NCBI RefSeq assembly: GCF_014472395.1 | Contig: NZ_JACSZW010000003.1 | Location: 124,001 to 188,000 of the forward strand | Reading direction: 5' to 3' | Source of the DNA: Pedobacter sp. N36a | GTDB lineage: Bacteria > Bacteroidota > Bacteroidia > Sphingobacteriales > Sphingobacteriaceae | DNA: 64,000 nt | Part shown: piece after piece, positions 5,120-62,116 of the stretch | Layout of the letters: each line of letters starts with the position of its first letter | Position numbering within the stretch: position 1 is the first letter of the stretch | Notes under the pieces: model-generated | What the model was told of the DNA's origin: nothing | The model's input: only the letters and a program-made list of their open reading frames with translations | The model's database searches: none | Made by a program: the position numbers and the translations under genes

Positions 5120-5874
5120 CAAAGTTAAGATGTATAGCGGTCGATGATGAACCATTGGCGCTGGATATTATAGAAGATTACGTATCTAAAGTACCTTTCT
5201 TAGAATTGGTCAAAAGAACCGAAAATGCAATTGAGGCCTTACAATTGGTACAGGCAGGTGGAATTGATCTGGTATTCCTGGACATTCAGATGCCTGAACT
5301 TACCGGAATACAGTTTCTGAAGATTGCGAATGGTAAATCTAATTATATCCTGACTACTGCTTACTCTCAATATGCTTTAGAAAGTTACGATTTGAATGTT
5401 TCCGATTACCTGCTGAAACCAATTGCGTTCGACAGGTTCTATAAAGCGGTAGAAAAGGTCCACAACCAACAGCAGAAGGCGATGGATCAAAGCCCTCCAC
5501 CAGTTCCGGTAGTCGCTGCTCCAGTAGCAGGGCCAGCACCTAGCGCACATCCGGTACAGGATTTTATCTTTGTGAAAACTGAACATAAAATCCAGAAGAT
5601 TCAACTGGATGACATTCTTTATATCGAAGGTTTAAAAGATTATATCTCAATTTATACCAAGGCAGAAAGAGTAATCACTCTGCAGAATATGAAGAAGATG
5701 GAAGAAACCCTGCCGAGCAGTCAGTTTATCAGGGTGCATAAATCTTACATTATTTCTCTGGATAAAATCGAAAGCATTGAACGCAGCAGAATCACTATTT
5801 TCGGTAAAGTGATCCCAATAGGGGATACTTATCGCGATGAGTTCTTCAAGCGTATCGACAATAAGAACATTTAG
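5116..5874 (+). CDS. LytTR family response regulator
   Basis: 252 residues. Receiver domain at residues 4-118 with acidic pair D10/D11, phospho-acceptor D56 in LVFLDIQMP, and a conserved Lys in YLLKPI. A Pro/Ala-rich linker (about 124-150) is unusually long. The LytTR DNA-binding domain occupies about 152-250 (IFVKTEHKIQKIQLDDILYIEGLKDY, FIRVHKSYIISL). It is the output of the preceding kinase and is translationally coupled to it. Target genes are not evident. The plsC-like gene behind it converges on it with a 25-bp gap and no clear terminator. Confidence 0.95.
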   Translation: MTKLRCIAVDDEPLALDIIEDYVSKVPFLELVKRTENAIEALQLVQAGGIDLVFLDIQMPELTGIQFLKIANGKSNYILTTAYSQYALESYDLNVSDYLLKPIAFDRFYKAVEKVHNQQQKAMDQSPPPVPVVAAPVAGPAPSAHPVQDFIFVKTEHKIQKIQLDDILYIEGLKDYISIYTKAERVITLQNMKKMEETLPSSQFIRVHKSYIISLDKIESIERSRITIFGKVIPIGDTYRDEFFKRIDNKNI

Positions 5875-5899
5875 ATTGACTGAATATTTTAAGAAAAGG

Positions 5900-6634
5900 T
5901 TATTGGCCCAATTTGTGGCGAATGGCCTTTTCTGCTTCCTGAGTCACCTCTTCAGGACCTTTACCCGCAGGCTCGATCGGTTTCAATACAGTCCATCGCA
6001 TCTTTTCCCCAAAACTTAATGGATAACTTCCATATTGTACCATTTTCCATGAATTCTCAATAGCAATTGGCACAATCAGTGCATTCGGCACCTTTTTAAG
6101 TAAAGTGGCAATACCACCTACATGAAAAGGTTTCAGGATTCCGTCTTTGGAACGGGTACCTTCTGGAAAGATCATTGCCGACCAGTTGTTTGCTTTCATG
6201 CGTGCTCCCAATTTGATGATTTCTCCAACCGCTTGCTTGCTGTCTTTACGGTTGATATTGGCACCGCCACCGTGTTTCAGATTGAAAGAGATGGACGGAA
6301 TGCCCTTGGTCAGTTCAATTTTGGAGATGAACTTGACATGGTGTTTTCTTAAAAACCAGATCAGTCCCGGAATGTCATACATGCTTTGGTGGTTGGCAAT
6401 AAAGATGATCGGGCGGTCTGTTGGCAGGTCCTGAGTATTCATGAAATGAATGGAAGCACCCATAAAAAGGTCGCAATAGGTGAGGCAGAAGTTCAGCGCA
6501 TCTACGGAAGCTTTATGGGCTTTATAGCCAAAAACATGGAAACAAATCCATTGAACCGGCTGAAAAACAAGCAGGATGAGTAGGAATAATATATAAAATA
6601 TAGGGCTGAAAATATATCCTAAAAACTTATTCAT
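5900..6634 (-). CDS. 1-acyl-sn-glycerol-3-phosphate acyltransferase family protein
   Basis: 244 residues from ATG at 6634. An in-frame upstream region was not used because the membrane helix begins right after MNKFLGYIFSP. An N-terminal helix (8-27) is followed by the catalytic NHQSMYD motif (H82 and D87, HX4D) and by FPEGTRSKDG (158-165), which binds the glycerol phosphate. This is the PlsC fold, which adds the second acyl chain to lysophosphatidic acid in the inner membrane. It sits 16 bp behind a Nudix gene. A specialised lyso-lipid acyltransferase is possible, so no symbol is given. Confidence 0.9.
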   Translation of the reverse strand: MNKFLGYIFSPIFYILFLLILLVFQPVQWICFHVFGYKAHKASVDALNFCLTYCDLFMGASIHFMNTQDLPTDRPIIFIANHQSMYDIPGLIWFLRKHHVKFISKIELTKGIPSISFNLKHGGGANINRKDSKQAVGEIIKLGARMKANNWSAMIFPEGTRSKDGILKPFHVGGIATLLKKVPNALIVPIAIENSWKMVQYGSYPLSFGEKMRWTVLKPIEPAGKGPEEVTQEAEKAIRHKLGQ

Positions 6635-6650
6635 AAAAGGTGTGGTATCG

Positions 6651-7205
6651 TTAAATATGAGTTTCCTGTAAAAGTATTTTGGTTTTAAGAATGGCGGCAA
6701 CGCTCATGCTGTCGGTAATTTCACCGTTCAACACCATTTGATAGGCAGCTTCGAAAGGAAGTTTTTTGATTTGAAGCTGTTCTGTTTCTTCGGGTTCAGA
6801 TTCACCCATGGTGAGGCCGCGAGCAATATAGATGATGGCCAGTTCATCACTCACAGAATTGGATAAGTGCATGCGCTGGATTTCTTCCCATTGTGTGGCG
6901 ATAATGCCGGTTTCTTCTGCCAGTTCGCGCTTTGCGCTGTCCAGAGGATCGGCATCTAGCGGGCCTCCGCCTTCAGGGATTTCCCAGCTATAGGCTTTCA
7001 TAGGAAAGCGGTATTGTCCAACAAGCCAGGTGTTCAATTGATCATCTAAAGGAAGGATGCCTATGGCGTAGTTTTTAAAATGAACTTCGCCATATATTCC
7101 TTTACCTCCTGATGGATTGAGCACCTGGTGTTCTGTTAATCCGATCCAGTTATTTTCATAGACCTTGTGGCTTTCCAGAGTAGTCCAGGGATTGTTTTCT
7201 TCCAT
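6651..7205 (-). CDS. Nudix hydrolase (ADP-ribose/nucleoside-diphosphate-sugar type)
   Basis: 184 residues. The Nudix box reads EGGGPLDADPLDSAKREL and continues AEETGI, so the REL-x-EE-x-G-I half is intact. The first Glu of the G-x5-E pattern is replaced by Ala (GGPLDADPL). The start of the protein and the SWEIPEGG lead-in resemble ADP-ribose pyrophosphatases. It probably hydrolyses a nucleoside diphosphate linked to a sugar. Gaps are 14 bp from the upstream receptor gene and 16 bp to plsC, which suggests one transcript. Confidence 0.88.
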   Translation of the reverse strand: MEENNPWTTLESHKVYENNWIGLTEHQVLNPSGGKGIYGEVHFKNYAIGILPLDDQLNTWLVGQYRFPMKAYSWEIPEGGGPLDADPLDSAKRELAEETGIIATQWEEIQRMHLSNSVSDELAIIYIARGLTMGESEPEETEQLQIKKLPFEAAYQMVLNGEITDSMSVAAILKTKILLQETHI

Positions 7206-7219
7206 GGACGCAAATATAC

Positions 7220-9712
7220 TTAAAATGACTCTTCATCGGAACGCATTTCCGACTGGTCAGGCCTTTTGGCTTTCTTAGATTTGAAATCAGTTTTTCCAAA
7301 GCGGTAAGAGTAGGTGATGTTACCCATCGTTCCCTGCATATAACGTCTGAAATCAGTGATAGAATTGTTGGTGCTGGTGGTCATGCTCCAGGCACGGGTA
7401 TTGAAAATATCCCTTATATTCAGACTTAAAGACGATTTCTTGTTTTTGAAGTCATATTTAGCACCAGCATCCACACCATACATGGCGTTTCTGGTTCCCT
7501 GTGCCATGACCTGGCGTGCACGGTAATCTCCTTTTACCTGTAATGTAATGCCATAAGGCAATACGAAATTATTTGTTAAGTTGGCATTCCAGGTAAAACC
7601 CGAGTTTTCTATGATTCCAAATGCAGGAACACCGTTGATTTTACTTTGATATAAATTGGCATTAGCCGTAAAATTCCAGGCTTTAACCAGGTCAAATCTA
7701 CCGATTAACTCTAATCCGCTGGACAACTCTTTAGTTAAGTTTTCAGGAGTCGTAATGGTAATGCCATTATCATCAGGTTCTGTTCTGATCCTTTGAATCA
7801 CATCATTTGTTTGACGCATGTAGGCGGTAGAAATGAAAGTTACCTTTGGCCAGAATTTACTGTAGCTCAATTCAAAGGCATGTACATCCTCCGGTTTAAG
7901 GTTCGGATTCCCCTGGCGGTAGTTTAATGGGTCTGAAACATCCAGGAAAGGATTGGTATCCCAGCCTCGCGGTCTGTTTACTCTTCTGCTGTAACTCAGC
8001 TGTACCTGCTGTTCTTTTTCTAGTTTCTGTGTTAAGAAGATACTTGGATACAACCTGGTGTAGGCTACTTTTCCAGGGATATAACTGAGCTGACCTGCAG
8101 TGTTATACACACCTAATTTGGTGTCTAATGTGGCATCTTCCGCTCTCAATCCTACCTGATAACCGAAATTTTTAACAGAGTTCTGGTAATTGGCATAAAT
8201 GGCATGTACCTGATCTTTACTGTTAAAATCATTGGTTAAATCCAGATTTGGTCTGTATCCTTCCACGTTATTGTGGTAGATTTCAGAGAATGTGCTGTTT
8301 TCCGCAATGCGAATCTGGCTGCGGTAACCAGCTTCCAGTTTTCCAGTTTTACCTACAGGCAGGGTATAATCAGTTTGTGCGTTGTAATTTCTGTTGAGGC
8401 CGCTTCCATCGTTACGGATCAATTCTGGACGCTGGCTGACCGGAACACCGTCTAGGTTGTAAATATTCGTGTTGTAAAGTTGTAGGTTGTCGTTGTTTCC
8501 TTCAGAAAAGCTCAGGTTAAAGGTGATTTCCTCCCTTGGTTTTTTAAATTTATGACTGTAATCCAGGTTCAGGTCGTAACTGCCCCCAGATCCTAAGTTG
8601 GTGTTTGTTCTGTTGCTCAGCTCTATAGGCTGATTCAATGCGTTTAACTTATTGATGTTTAGAAACTCAGTTCTATCATTGTCTCTCAGGTTAAAACCTG
8701 CAGCAAAGCTTAGTACATCTTTATCTGTCAGGTAATAATCCAGGCCTGCTTTCGCATTGTGTCCTTTATCTAAAGATTCCGAAATGGTATTCTGATTGGC
8801 AAAGGCAATAGGGGATGTAGAATTTAAATAGCTGATGTTGTTATAACCACCACCATTTCTGTTGCCATAACGGTAGCTGTAATTTCCATAGAGATTTACT
8901 TTGCTGTTTTGGAAGCTTAAGCTGGTGCTTGCATTATAGTTGTCGCGGTTTCCGGCAGTTAAAGCCAGGTTTCCGTTTAATCCTAATTTCTTGTTTTTCT
9001 TTAATACAATGTTGATGATCCCTGATTGGCCTTCTGCATCGTATTTCGCAGATGGGTTGGTGATCAGTTCCACACTTTCAATAGAACTTGCCGGAATAGA
9101 CTGCAGGATCTGTGCCACATTTCCGCCAGCAATCAGCGAAGGTTTTCCATCAATGAGTACTTTCACTCCTGTGGAACCCCTTAAGCTTACATTGCCATCG
9201 ATGTCTGTGGTGACAGAAGGCACGTTTTGTAAAAGATCGGAGGCAGAACCACCCTCGCTCACTAAACTTTGGTCTACAGAGAATATTTTCTTATCCACGC
9301 CCAATTGTATCGTGCTTTTGGCTGCGGTAATCGTTACCTCATTCAGGGCTGTTCCTTTGGCAGTGTTCATTTTAATGGTGCCCAGGTTGATGTTATTTAC
9401 GGTGCCATTGATCGTGATAGAGTCGCGAACCATAGTCTGGTAACCTACATAGCTCAGTTTAAAGGTAAAAACTCCTTTTGGCAAGCCTACCATGGATAAG
9501 TTTCCGTTGACATCAGTTTGGACACCTTTTACCAAAGCCTTGGTTTTCCTGTTGAGGATAACGGCTGTTGCAAATGGAATAGTTTCATTGGTTTTTGCAT
9601 CTACTACTTTTGCGCTAATCTTACCGTCGCCGGTAGTCTGGGCATTAAGTTTTACAGTTGTAATACAAATCGCAAGGGTTAAAAATAGTACTTTGTGTAA
9701 CGGATTCTTCAT
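7220..9712 (-). CDS. TonB-receptor-like outer-membrane beta-barrel protein
   Basis: 830 residues. A signal peptide (1-24, ending LNAQ) is followed by a carboxypeptidase regulatory-like domain (about 30-115), a plug domain (about 125-235, with the LLQNVPSVTTDIDGNVSLRG and VLIDGKPSL segments) and a long barrel to the C-terminus (outer membrane protein beta-barrel family, PF14905-like). The C-terminus is charged (FKSKKAKRPDQS) and does not end in the usual aromatic residue pattern of OMPs. No SusD partner is present, so the substrate is unknown. It is the first gene of a likely three-gene minus-strand unit with Nudix and plsC. Confidence 0.9.
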   Translation of the reverse strand: MKNPLHKVLFLTLAICITTVKLNAQTTGDGKISAKVVDAKTNETIPFATAVILNRKTKALVKGVQTDVNGNLSMVGLPKGVFTFKLSYVGYQTMVRDSITINGTVNNINLGTIKMNTAKGTALNEVTITAAKSTIQLGVDKKIFSVDQSLVSEGGSASDLLQNVPSVTTDIDGNVSLRGSTGVKVLIDGKPSLIAGGNVAQILQSIPASSIESVELITNPSAKYDAEGQSGIINIVLKKNKKLGLNGNLALTAGNRDNYNASTSLSFQNSKVNLYGNYSYRYGNRNGGGYNNISYLNSTSPIAFANQNTISESLDKGHNAKAGLDYYLTDKDVLSFAAGFNLRDNDRTEFLNINKLNALNQPIELSNRTNTNLGSGGSYDLNLDYSHKFKKPREEITFNLSFSEGNNDNLQLYNTNIYNLDGVPVSQRPELIRNDGSGLNRNYNAQTDYTLPVGKTGKLEAGYRSQIRIAENSTFSEIYHNNVEGYRPNLDLTNDFNSKDQVHAIYANYQNSVKNFGYQVGLRAEDATLDTKLGVYNTAGQLSYIPGKVAYTRLYPSIFLTQKLEKEQQVQLSYSRRVNRPRGWDTNPFLDVSDPLNYRQGNPNLKPEDVHAFELSYSKFWPKVTFISTAYMRQTNDVIQRIRTEPDDNGITITTPENLTKELSSGLELIGRFDLVKAWNFTANANLYQSKINGVPAFGIIENSGFTWNANLTNNFVLPYGITLQVKGDYRARQVMAQGTRNAMYGVDAGAKYDFKNKKSSLSLNIRDIFNTRAWSMTTSTNNSITDFRRYMQGTMGNITYSYRFGKTDFKSKKAKRPDQSEMRSDEESF

Positions 9713-58579: not shown

Positions 58580-59878
58580 CTAGTACAATACCCTGAATTT
58601 AATGGTATGTTCAATTTTCTTCAGAGATTTAAAAAGTTGTTTGTCGTACTCCGAGTTGATGTCGGTGATCGCATAACCGATCTCCGGGTTGGTCATCAAA
58701 AACTGTCCGACAATGTTGATGTCGTGTTTTGCAAATACGGTATTGATCTTTGCCATAATTCCAGGAACATTCTTGTGAATATGGATCAGACGGTGTGATT
58801 TCTCAATTCTTGGCAATTGCAGGTTCGGAAAATTGTTACTCAAATGAGTCGTTCCTGTATTCATAAAGTCGATCATTCGCTTAGGAATGAAAGTCAGGTT
58901 TCTTGGGTTTGATTTCAAATCATCAAATACCACCACTCCTTGTTTGGTACAAGCAGCCAGATCGATCTTGTTTTTTGATTGTCCGAGATAGCCAACAGTT
59001 TTTAGTTTTACCGCTCTGGTCAATTGATCCAGGGTCAGTTTCTCGCCATCTGCCAATAATAGCATGTGCACATCTGCCACATACTTTTCTTCAAATGCAG
59101 TTTTATGACGGATGGAAAAACCATCTTTTTTCAGCAAGGCGATGCTTTCCGGATTTACATCCCCGATCACCAGGCATAAAATTCTATTTTTCGGATAAGA
59201 AATCGCCCTTGGAAGGTTGTTCACATATAAAAACTCGTCGAAACTTGGCGTTACATGGTCTGCTTTTTTAACGATACTTTCTCTGGAAATGTTCTCTGTA
59301 AAAGCATAGAACTTCTTGATCAATCCGCTTTCTCTCAGCTGGAAATCAGAATAGCCATCACCAATACCGTAAAGATTACCTTCCAGGTTTAGCTGCTGCA
59401 TTAACTTCACTTTGCCACCTTCCTCACTTAAAGGATTGGAATGGTCGTAATCTATAATTTTGCCATCTCCAGTGGTGACAAAGGTGTTGGCATAAATATT
59501 CTCTTTTTTGATGTGATATTGGCTCACCACAGGGGTGATAAACTCTTTAAAACCACCAGAAACGATCAAGACTTCATCTGCATGTTTCTTGAAGAAATCC
59601 GCATTGCGGGAGAAAGAGGCAGATACCTTTTTCTTTAAGCGCGTAATCAGCTGCTTCAAATGGTCTTCTGTAGCTTCCAAAAGTTTTACCCTTTGCGCTA
59701 AGCTCTCGCCGAAGGAAAGTTTTCCCTCCATGGCCAGGTTGGTATAATCCTCAATCTTTTTGAAGATGGCTTCCTTATCAGGATGCTTTTTTAGGGAGAT
59801 ACGGGCCAGCTCATCCAATGCCTCTACCTGTGTAAAGGTGCTGTCGAAATCAATGATGTAAATGTTCTTCTGGTTCAT
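58580..59878 (-). CDS. SerB-like HAD phosphatase fused to a PGDH fragment and ACT domain
   Basis: 432 residues. Residues 1-215 are a SerB-type HAD phosphatase: DFDST (10-14, D10 nucleophile and D12), SGG (107-109), GIGDGYSDF (171-179). Residues about 230-360 match only the first part of the substrate-binding domain and the linker of D-3-phosphoglycerate dehydrogenase (VADVHMLLLADGEKL, KLKTVGYLGQSKNKIDLAACTKQGVVVFD, then FMNTGTTHLSNNFPNLQLP); the roughly 200-residue NAD-binding domain is absent. Residues 361-432 are an ACT domain close to that of SerA (RLIHIHKNVPGIMAKINTVFA, ending FRVLY). Phosphoserine hydrolysis with serine feedback is likely. It is 4 bp downstream of the epimerase gene. Confidence 0.88.
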   Translation of the reverse strand: MNQKNIYIIDFDSTFTQVEALDELARISLKKHPDKEAIFKKIEDYTNLAMEGKLSFGESLAQRVKLLEATEDHLKQLITRLKKKVSASFSRNADFFKKHADEVLIVSGGFKEFITPVVSQYHIKKENIYANTFVTTGDGKIIDYDHSNPLSEEGGKVKLMQQLNLEGNLYGIGDGYSDFQLRESGLIKKFYAFTENISRESIVKKADHVTPSFDEFLYVNNLPRAISYPKNRILCLVIGDVNPESIALLKKDGFSIRHKTAFEEKYVADVHMLLLADGEKLTLDQLTRAVKLKTVGYLGQSKNKIDLAACTKQGVVVFDDLKSNPRNLTFIPKRMIDFMNTGTTHLSNNFPNLQLPRIEKSHRLIHIHKNVPGIMAKINTVFAKHDINIVGQFLMTNPEIGYAITDINSEYDKQLFKSLKKIEHTIKFRVLY

Positions 59879-59882
59879 AATT

Positions 59883-60860
59883 TTAATGAAGTGAAACCTG
59901 TTTCAAGGCCTGACAAGTTTCTGCCACACTCTGATCCAAGGGCTTAAAGGTTATTCCAATCGTATCAATTATCTTTTTATTGCTGTATAAACTTTCATTC
60001 AGGCTGCTTCTCGCGGCATCACTGGTCAAGGCTGCAGGCTTTCCGGTAAATAAGGAAGCCAGCTTTGCAGCCCTCCAGGCAATGCCCAGCATCCATGGTT
60101 TCGCTTCTTTTGATGGTGCTTTGACGCCAAAACCTTTGGCAATCTCGCCAAAGAAACGCTGGTAATTATAATTTTCAGCGGAGATGGTAAAACGTTCCTC
60201 GCTGATGCTGCTATCCATTAAAGCAATCATACATTTCGCCACATCTTCCACGTCTACAATACCTGTAGCCCCTTTTGTATAATAAGAAAGACCATCTCTC
60301 ACCAGTTTAAAGATTGCACCGCTGCCCTCAAATCCAGCTCCGCCACCAATGATGACCGATGGATTCACGATCACCGCATCCAGCCCTTCCGCAATGCCGC
60401 GCCATACTTCCATCTCTCCTTCATATTTGGAAATGGCATAACTATGTGCTTTGGAATCGTATTCCCAGAAGTCTTTTTCGGTGATGAGCGCGTCTTTTTT
60501 CGCGTTCCCTAATGCCGCCACTGAGCTGACATGTAAGAGCCTCGCCTGATTTTCTACGCAGAGATTGACCACATTACTGGTGCCCTCAATGTTTACTCTC
60601 AGTAATGTAGCTTTGTCTTTCGGATCAAAAGAAACCATGGCCGCACAGTGATACACCTGCGAAATACCTTCAAAAGCATCTTCCAGGGTAGAAAATTCGT
60701 TCAGGTCTGCTACCACCCAGCTGATCAGGGTATTGTCTTTCAGGATCGCCGGAACCACAGAATGCTCGCGCTTTAATGCACGGAGCTTAATTCCTTGTCC
60801 CGTCAGTTGATGTATTAATTCTGCCCCTAAAAATCCAGTAGCACCGGTAACCAATATCAT
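59883..60860 (-). CDS. NAD-dependent epimerase/dehydratase-type oxidoreductase
   Basis: 325 residues from ATG 60860, where the nucleotide motif TGATGFLGAEL begins; a 27-codon upstream extension that runs across the -7 box was dropped. An extended-SDR form with the catalytic YAISKYEGE (Tyr and Lys) and the INVNPSVIIGGG region; the HCAAMVSFDPKDK segment resembles dihydroflavonol-reductase-like or 3-beta-HSD-like enzymes. The substrate is unknown. It is 4 bp before the SerB-fusion gene, so they should be co-transcribed from the promoter at 60897. Confidence 0.9.
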   Translation of the reverse strand: MILVTGATGFLGAELIHQLTGQGIKLRALKREHSVVPAILKDNTLISWVVADLNEFSTLEDAFEGISQVYHCAAMVSFDPKDKATLLRVNIEGTSNVVNLCVENQARLLHVSSVAALGNAKKDALITEKDFWEYDSKAHSYAISKYEGEMEVWRGIAEGLDAVIVNPSVIIGGGAGFEGSGAIFKLVRDGLSYYTKGATGIVDVEDVAKCMIALMDSSISEERFTISAENYNYQRFFGEIAKGFGVKAPSKEAKPWMLGIAWRAAKLASLFTGKPAALTSDAARSSLNESLYSNKKIIDTIGITFKPLDQSVAETCQALKQVSLH

Positions 60861-60896
60861 TTCATTATTTTTAGGATGTTCATTAAAATATGATCT

Positions 60897-60904
60897 CAAA
60901 AATA
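60897..60904 (-). promoter_or_regulatory. -7 promoter box of the epimerase/SerB-fusion unit
   Basis: Minus-strand TATTTTTG matches TAnnTTTG exactly; a TTG about 26 bp upstream is a poor -33. The leader to the ATG at 60860 would be about 32 nt. Confidence 0.5.
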
Positions 60905-60934
60905 GATATTTGACAGATACATTTATAATACAAT

Positions 60935-62116
60935 ATGTCATTATCAGATTTTTTCTCTCCAGTCAACCCCGATAAATTTGCACCGAAACAAGGATTCTAT
61001 GCCAGTCAGTTAGGTTTAAGGGCAGGATTCTACACCGATAAATTTCCGGAACTTGGGGAAAATCAATATGATATTGCCATTTTTGGTGTGCAAGATGACC
61101 GTGCCGCGGTAAATAATGAGGGCTGTGGCCTTGGTCCCGACTATTTCAGGGCGCAATTTTACGCCTTACATGAAGGTGCTTTCGACAGCAGGATCATCGA
61201 TCTTGGGAACATCAAACCTGGCGCTTCTATTTCGGATACTTATGTAGCGGTAAAGATGGCGGTAGGGGAATTGATTAAATTGAATATCATTCCGGTCATT
61301 ATTGGCGGCGGACAAGACCTGACTTATGCGCAGTACCTGGCTTATGAAAGTCTGGAGCAAAAGGTAGACCTGGTTGTGGTAGACAGTAAGTTTGACCTCG
61401 ACGAAGAAGATCAGGAAGGACTGGCTGCAAAATCAGATACCTACCTTAACAAAATATTATTACATCAGCCCAATTACCTGTTTAACTTCAGCAATGTAGG
61501 CTACCAGACTTACTTCGTGAATCAGGATAGCTTGAAGGTCATGAGTAAGTTGTATTTTGATGCCCACCGACTGGGAGAATTCAGTAACGACATCACTTTA
61601 ACGGAGCCGATTATTCGCAATGCGACCATGATTAGCTTTGATATTGGCGCGATCAGATCTTCGGATGCCGTAGCCAATGCCAATGCCGGGCCAAATGGTT
61701 TTTATGGCGAACAAGCCTGCCGGATTACGCGCTATGCAGGCATGAGCGACAAGCTGACTTCGATTGGTTTTTATGAGTTTAACCCGGCATTCGACCAGAA
61801 CGGACAAACCGCTTTATTACTCGCGCAAATGGTCTGGTACTTCATAGAAGGCTTTTATAACCGTAAAAAAGATTTCCCACTCAGCCCGAAATCACAATAT
61901 CTGATCTATCGCGCCAGCTTAAATGACGGCTCTGGAGATATGCTGTTTGTGAAGAGTAAAAAGTCCGACAGGTGGTGGATGCAAGTCCCTTATCCATCCG
62001 GAATTACCAAGAACGAACGCTATCATCTCGTGCCCTGCCGATACGACGATTATACAATGGCCGTGAATGGAGAGATGCCTGATTTATGGTGGAGAACCTA
62101 TCAAAAGCTATTGTAA
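60935..62116 (+). CDS. Arginase/formimidoylglutamase-fold protein with degenerate metal site
   Basis: 393 residues. It aligns with ureohydrolases over residues 45-310: GGGQDLTYAQ, VVVDSKFDLDEE, SFDIGAIRSSDA and a final GFYEFNPAFDQNGQTALLLAQMVW. The usual metal ligands are altered: the GGDH His is Q127, DAHxD is D150-S-K152-F-D154, and SxDxDxxDP is S234-F-D236-I-G238 with no second Asp. A binuclear Mn site is thus unlikely. A conserved C-terminal extension (about 320-393, rich in Trp/Tyr) is absent from arginases. It is probably a non-enzymatic relative of formimidoylglutamase; the divergent neighbour is the epimerase gene. Confidence 0.85.
   Translation: MSLSDFFSPVNPDKFAPKQGFYASQLGLRAGFYTDKFPELGENQYDIAIFGVQDDRAAVNNEGCGLGPDYFRAQFYALHEGAFDSRIIDLGNIKPGASISDTYVAVKMAVGELIKLNIIPVIIGGGQDLTYAQYLAYESLEQKVDLVVVDSKFDLDEEDQEGLAAKSDTYLNKILLHQPNYLFNFSNVGYQTYFVNQDSLKVMSKLYFDAHRLGEFSNDITLTEPIIRNATMISFDIGAIRSSDAVANANAGPNGFYGEQACRITRYAGMSDKLTSIGFYEFNPAFDQNGQTALLLAQMVWYFIEGFYNRKKDFPLSPKSQYLIYRASLNDGSGDMLFVKSKKSDRWWMQVPYPSGITKNERYHLVPCRYDDYTMAVNGEMPDLWWRTYQKLL

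Follow-up and report, generated by a model that had tools for sequence, protein, structure and literature searches.

The textbook view of biosynthetic feedback is that the end product acts on the first committed step of its pathway. In serine biosynthesis this step belongs to phosphoglycerate dehydrogenase (PGDH, SerA), whose substrate domain is discontinuous, the NAD domain being inserted between its two chain segments; in the Escherichia coli enzyme, serine acts by shifting the unit of substrate and ACT domains relative to the NAD domain. The L-serine molecule is bound there by His344, Asn346, and Asn364, and a Gly-Gly hinge (336-337) matters for the transmission of serine inhibition (PMC6300728). 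Type III PGDHs have no ACT domain and are not regulated by serine (PMC6300728).

Phosphoserine phosphatases (SerB) can also carry ACT domains. The ACT-bearing MtSerB2 is inhibited by L-serine, which also shifts its oligomers, a precedent for control of such a phosphatase by serine via ACT domains (PMC10564941). The mycobacterial SerB2 enzymes (MtSerB2, MaSerB) resemble the Pedobacter protein described here in holding a phosphoserine phosphatase and one or more ACT domains in one chain, but MtSerB2 has two ACT domains before the phosphatase, whereas the Pedobacter protein has one SerA-type ACT domain after it, attached via a whole SerA substrate domain. A Flavobacterium-type SerB (406 aa, L257; genus name inferred) shows the mycobacterial-like order ACT-ACT-HAD. 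As some SerBs are built as ACT-ACT-phosphatase and the present one as HAD-SBD-ACT (SBD, substrate-binding domain), the attachment of ACT to a phosphoserine phosphatase has been reached by two architectures. Fusion of serine-pathway enzymes is known from Phytophthora, which has a bifunctional PGDH/phosphoserine aminotransferase (PMC2705460), although this enzyme joins steps one and two, is eukaryotic, contains no phosphatase, and has lost no domain. A search of the open-access literature found no paper on a SerB-SerA fusion or on its NAD-less form. What appears to be new is the architecture, together with its parallel origin through excision of a domain and its use across the family; the parts and the type of control are known.

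The gene lies in the window, i.e., the whole 64,000-nucleotide stretch of Pedobacter sp. N36a DNA that was analyzed. Its parts are listed in Table 1.

Table 1. Features of the SerB-SBD-ACT gene, with coordinates in the window.
Feature	Position	Strand	Details
Whole gene, SerB-SBD-ACT protein, 432 aa	58580..59878	-	ATG start, stop included
HAD-IB phosphoserine phosphatase domain with cap, residues 1-222	59213..59878	-	D10, D12, E19, R63, S107, K156, D174, D178 conserved
SerA substrate-binding domain, N-terminal half, residues 223-329	58892..59212	-	RSKT (3-phosphoglycerate-binding) replaced by ADGE at 276-279
Excision scar, codons 329/330	58889..58894	-	SerA NAD-binding domain (about 195 residues) absent here
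Substrate domain C-terminal helix and linker to ACT, residues 330-361	58796..58891	-	
SerA-type ACT domain, residues 362-432	58583..58795	-	H368, N370, N388 correspond to E. coli PGDH H344, N346, N364

Pfam recognizes a HAD domain (9-181, 8e-8), the N-terminal part of 2-Hacid_dh (236-325, 5e-8), and ACT (364-427, 2e-12) in the 432-aa protein, with no match to the NAD-binding family PF02826. The domain order is thus HAD-SBD-ACT, with a single, C-terminal ACT domain of the SerA type. The NCBIfam SerA model matches the protein as two separated stretches, and the only phosphatase model that it passes is the HAD-IB subfamily TIGR01488 (62 vs. a cut-off of 45), its score for the SerB equivalog TIGR00338 (66 bits) being below the cut-off of 144 bits. 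An earlier note on this DNA had described the NAD-binding domain as lacking and had suggested an alignment with SerA to map the missing part. The absence holds up: in the sequence alignment with E. coli PGDH (2p9c), residues 226-329 correspond to 4-113 and residues 332-432 to 309-410, and the gap of about 195 residues is a single block between PGDH 113 and 309. The NAD-binding domain, which bears the catalytic Arg, Glu, and His of SerA, is therefore absent. A chance frame, a frameshift, or an assembly error is ruled out, as the reading frame is uninterrupted and conservation extends throughout the order searched.

An NAD-dependent epimerase-like gene (59883-60941, minus strand) stops 4 bases before the start of the SerB gene, on the same strand. 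This pair is kept in most Sphingobacteriaceae loci, often with an arginase/formimidoylglutamase-like gene beyond it, and, being adjacent and conserved, the two genes may share one transcript.

An AlphaFold model of the protein (38-sequence alignment, mean pLDDT 87, substrate-domain blocks mostly >90) agrees with this partition. Its residues 229-432 superpose on residues 7-410 of E. coli PGDH with Z 27.6 and an rmsd of 1.6 Å over 203 residues, and the comparison with structures of this type II enzyme (1psd, 2p9c) gives Z 27, 1.6-1.8 Å over about 203 residues, and 32% identity for the substrate and ACT domains. Residues 2-218 superpose on human phosphoserine phosphatase (6hyy) with Z 20; the phosphatase fold matches both 6hyy and 3kd3, annotated as phosphoserine phosphohydrolase-like, with Z about 20 over 203-208 residues. 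Such agreement of fold is to be expected for so near a relative, since the prediction program was trained on structures that include PGDH. Both segments of the substrate domain are present and joined directly, so that in the predicted fold the domain is complete and the NAD domain cleanly excised. The earlier note had seen here the start of the SerA substrate domain, a linker, and a full ACT domain; it was right about ACT, but the words 'start' and 'remnant' do not apply to a domain with both halves present and superposable on PGDH. Compared with E. coli PGDH, the Pedobacter protein keeps the serine-binding residues, has an N-terminal phosphatase, and lacks the NAD domain, the 3-phosphoglycerate motif, and the Gly-Gly hinge.

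This short form is found in all 35 same-genus (Pedobacter) genomes first searched, at 81-91% identity, and the search for the same architecture, proposed in the earlier note, gives a match in 394 of 400 genomes of the order, nearly all with E-values reachable only by an end-to-end match. The architecture is thus family-wide and ancient, and is no peculiarity of the window's genome. Named records with the short form include Sphingobacterium, Mucilaginibacter, Parapedobacter, Olivibacter, Arcticibacter, and Anseongella; outside the Sphingobacteriaceae, it occurs in Niabella, Chitinophaga, and one Polaribacter metagenome-assembled genome (MAG). The gene is absent from six family genomes (G149, G367, G387, G420, G421, and G427). 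As G149 and G387 retain a short SerA, and a weak HAD-IB candidate of 224 aa is present in G149, the phosphatase may have been replaced or lost there. In G375 (L118/L121) and G809 (L091/L094), an apparent frame change, due to either sequencing error or decay, breaks the gene in two. The record L137 (titled Flavobacteriaceae bacterium PS02338) is probably misnamed, its gene and neighbors being Pedobacter-like (epimerase 67%, tryptophan dioxygenase 82%).

Other Bacteroidota have the same phosphatase fused to a complete SerA, in proteins of 627-632 aa (e.g., L074, L078, L233). The extracted fusion proteins (trimmed at the N-terminus) fall in two length classes, 424-433 and 627-632 aa, with one frame-broken copy of 391 aa outside both. 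The full-length fusion has the same domain order as the short form and differs in keeping the NAD domain: the stretch bounded by one shared pair of flanking motifs measures 213-214 residues in full forms and 14-21 in short ones. In all 23 full-length proteins, the equivalents of R60, S61, N108, the NAD-binding glycines, R240, E269, H292, and Q301 are kept, and, as this covers every catalytic and 3-phosphoglycerate-binding residue checked, the full-length fusion is presumably bifunctional. No decay of the fused dehydrogenase before its loss is seen, as these 23 proteins keep the residues checked even in genomes with a second SerA. In G780 (L090), the same two proteins are encoded in the same order and on the same strand, but in two separate frames, serB (227 aa, 6541-7224) and serA (404 aa, 5348-6562), that overlap by 22 bases; this pair likely represents the pre-fusion state.

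The direction of change is given by a tree of 71 proteins, built on the 430 columns common to both forms and rooted on three organisms whose SerB and SerA are unfused. A quick tree and then a careful one both place the short form in three positions: a Sphingobacteriaceae clade (support 100/100), with Niabella, Chitinophaga, and G686 nested within it; the Polaribacter MAG protein L173, sister to the full-length G454 protein (100/99); and L073 of G048, within a full-length group (100/98). The alternative, in which the short form arose once and the NAD domain was later regained, is rejected (AU test p=5e-53, lnL difference 144). By this tree, the full-length SerB-SerA fusion is the direct ancestor type of the short form, and the NAD domain has apparently been excised three times independently, with boundaries that agree to within a few residues. 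The exact place of L073 is unsure because of its long branch (1.7), but the Polaribacter excision is secure by itself, without reliance on L073; the L173 phosphatase domain is 88.6% identical to that of its full-length sister. G048 and the full-length G044 have in common, as judged by eye, an upstream neighbor (about 245 aa, lipoprotein-like; L073 149-880 and L078 2901-3650), which is consistent with loss of the NAD domain in place. The proposal of a gene fusion followed by a deletion, already made in the earlier note, is therefore strongly supported, since an intact fusion and an unfused pair both exist and the tree shows, on three occasions, which way the change went.

The short forms of Niabella (L163, L172, L201), Chitinophaga (L176, L184), and G686 (L079) are without the Sphingobacteriaceae neighbor genes. 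Nested in the Sphingobacteriaceae and lacking these neighbors, they have likely been acquired by horizontal transfer, in two separate groups.

What has been kept after excision can be read from residue conservation. The phosphatase residues D10, D12, E19, R63, S107, K156, D174, and D178, which cover the DxDxT nucleophile, the substrate-contacting Glu and Arg, the motif II Ser, the motif III Lys, and the motif IV DxxxD, are invariant in 45/45 short and 23/23 full forms, as are the equivalents of His344, Asn346, and Asn364. The 3-phosphoglycerate motif RSKT is kept by all 23 full forms and by none of the 45 short ones. At similar phosphatase identity (seven short-form pairs), identity in the substrate domain falls from 68.9% in full forms to 37.5% after excision, against 64.8% vs. 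60.6% in ACT. Purifying selection acts on every part of the protein in Pedobacter, the median dN/dS (NG86, about 20 pairs) being 0.005 for the phosphatase, 0.04 for the substrate domain, and 0.03 for ACT. These figures describe an arm that has given up its old ligand while retaining its fold and its serine sensor. That the serine-sensing part is kept, as the earlier note had it, is supported by the invariance of the three serine-contacting residues.

The remainder of the pathway was sought in the same genomes. The window's genome has a SerC gene directly followed by a 317-aa SerA with only the substrate and NAD domains, then by a DUF1015 gene (L071, 3231-4514, minus strand). Two SerC-like genes are above the family cut-off in this genome (L072, 4790-5941, minus strand; L071, 5490-6554, minus strand), of which one alone adjoins serA. 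No other SerA-type ACT domain or second ACT-bearing SerA was found in it, nor any other SerB-like gene above the family cut-off, in a search confined to the SerB family. An intact separate SerA-ACT region, named in the earlier note as what would speak against homology of the fragment, does not occur, since the genome's separate SerA is without ACT. Being of type III, it should be insensitive to serine, because type III PGDHs have no ACT domain and are unregulated.

The short SerA has orthologues in 11/11 Sphingobacteriaceae members tested as well as in G048 and the Polaribacter genome. Chitinophaga and Niabella are without it and have instead a separate 414-419-aa SerA with ACT, and no separate SerA was found in the short-form genome G686. 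All remaining short-form genomes tested thus contain a further SerA, which is what one would expect if loss of the NAD domain is tolerated only where its activity is backed up. Among genomes with the full-length fusion, no such second SerA is seen in eight (G036, G049, G605, G565, G495, G737, G786, G688); it is present in six (G038, G044, G046, G454, G554, G621).

Taken together, these features suggest that the cell's phosphoserine phosphatase is probably under end-product control by serine, exerted through the sensing arm of a former SerA. From its motifs, its fusion partner, and the lack of another candidate, the 432-aa protein is inferred to hydrolyze O-phosphoserine, and its ACT domain to bind L-serine at H368, N370, and N388. 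The wider account, that three lineages lost the NAD domain from a bifunctional SerB-SerA by excision at almost identical positions, that the rest became a serine-responsive arm, and that feedback moved from the first to the last step, has about an even chance of being right as a whole. The sequences document separate, overlapping serB and serA genes, a single SerB-SerA protein retaining both sites, and, in lineages with another SerA, clean excision of the NAD domain to leave the phosphatase, the substrate domain, and ACT. ACT domains would pair between two subunits, with L-serine held at the ACT-ACT interface by the above three residues; the substrate domain, an idle rigid arm, would pass the change on to the phosphatase domain and slow it. 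The genome's separate SerA, having no ACT domain, is expected to be blind to serine, so that feedback would fall on the final step of the pathway.

All three independent excisions keep ACT, which speaks for serine control. Two features count against it: the Gly-Gly hinge is absent from the sequence, so that the transmission route may differ from that of E. coli PGDH, and, with the NAD domain gone, serine action of the E. coli type lacks its counterpart. Moreover, relocated control would not be the whole story everywhere, since Chitinophaga and Niabella have both a protein of this type and an ACT-bearing SerA. GapMind (PMC7311316) lists no SerB gap for a Pedobacter strain, which is only weakly informative.

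The near-constant length of the whole arm (424-433 aa proteins) and the known role of ACT as the dimer interface of E. coli PGDH (PMC6300728) would also fit a SerA-derived half that serves only the dimerization or stability of the phosphatase, with paired ACT domains and no regulatory effect of serine. This is unlikely, as a bare interface need not keep three serine-contacting side chains in 45/45 sequences and through three excisions. The arm might instead bind the separate short SerA (or SerC), conferring serine control on it or holding the pathway enzymes together, an idea that draws on the ACT-less, otherwise unregulated short SerA held by the 11/11 family members tested, G048, and the Polaribacter MAG. 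It is quite improbable, given that the NAD-domain interface pairing PGDH subunits is the very part lost, that the two genes lie on different contigs of the draft, and that Chitinophaga and Niabella keep the fusion protein without having the short SerA.

That the SerA remainder is functionless and has stayed because its removal brings no gain agrees with the faster evolution of its substrate domain than in the full-length fusions, but is hard to reconcile with a dN/dS far below 1 in every part, strictly conserved serine-site residues, near-universal retention in the order searched, and three parallel cases; we consider it very improbable. The phosphatase itself could have a different substrate; histidinol phosphate, for instance, is a reported substrate of some phosphoserine-phosphatase-like proteins (PMC5764234). 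The close relationship among HAD-IB phosphatases and the missed SerB equivalog cut-off speak for this; nevertheless, with the fusion and gene adjacency to serA, an ACT domain with a serine site, and no other SerB-like gene above the cut-off in the genome, this possibility is scarcely credible.

Serine control of the phosphatase, the favored reading, would bear on annotation as well as on enzyme evolution. The NCBIfam cut-offs would name the protein only 'HAD-IB family phosphatase', and serine control in these bacteria would stay unexplained. Because ancestors with the full fusion, a pair of unfused genes, and a recent excision (the Polaribacter MAG protein vs. its full-length sister) are all available, the group offers a clean natural experiment on the re-use of an allosteric domain. 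That a dehydrogenase was repeatedly turned into a regulatory arm can be expected to surprise specialists, although it does not amount to a new kind of system. One widespread family of bacteria seems to have dropped control of the first step of serine biosynthesis and to have placed the same sensor on the last enzyme, a dead enzyme having become a regulatory arm.
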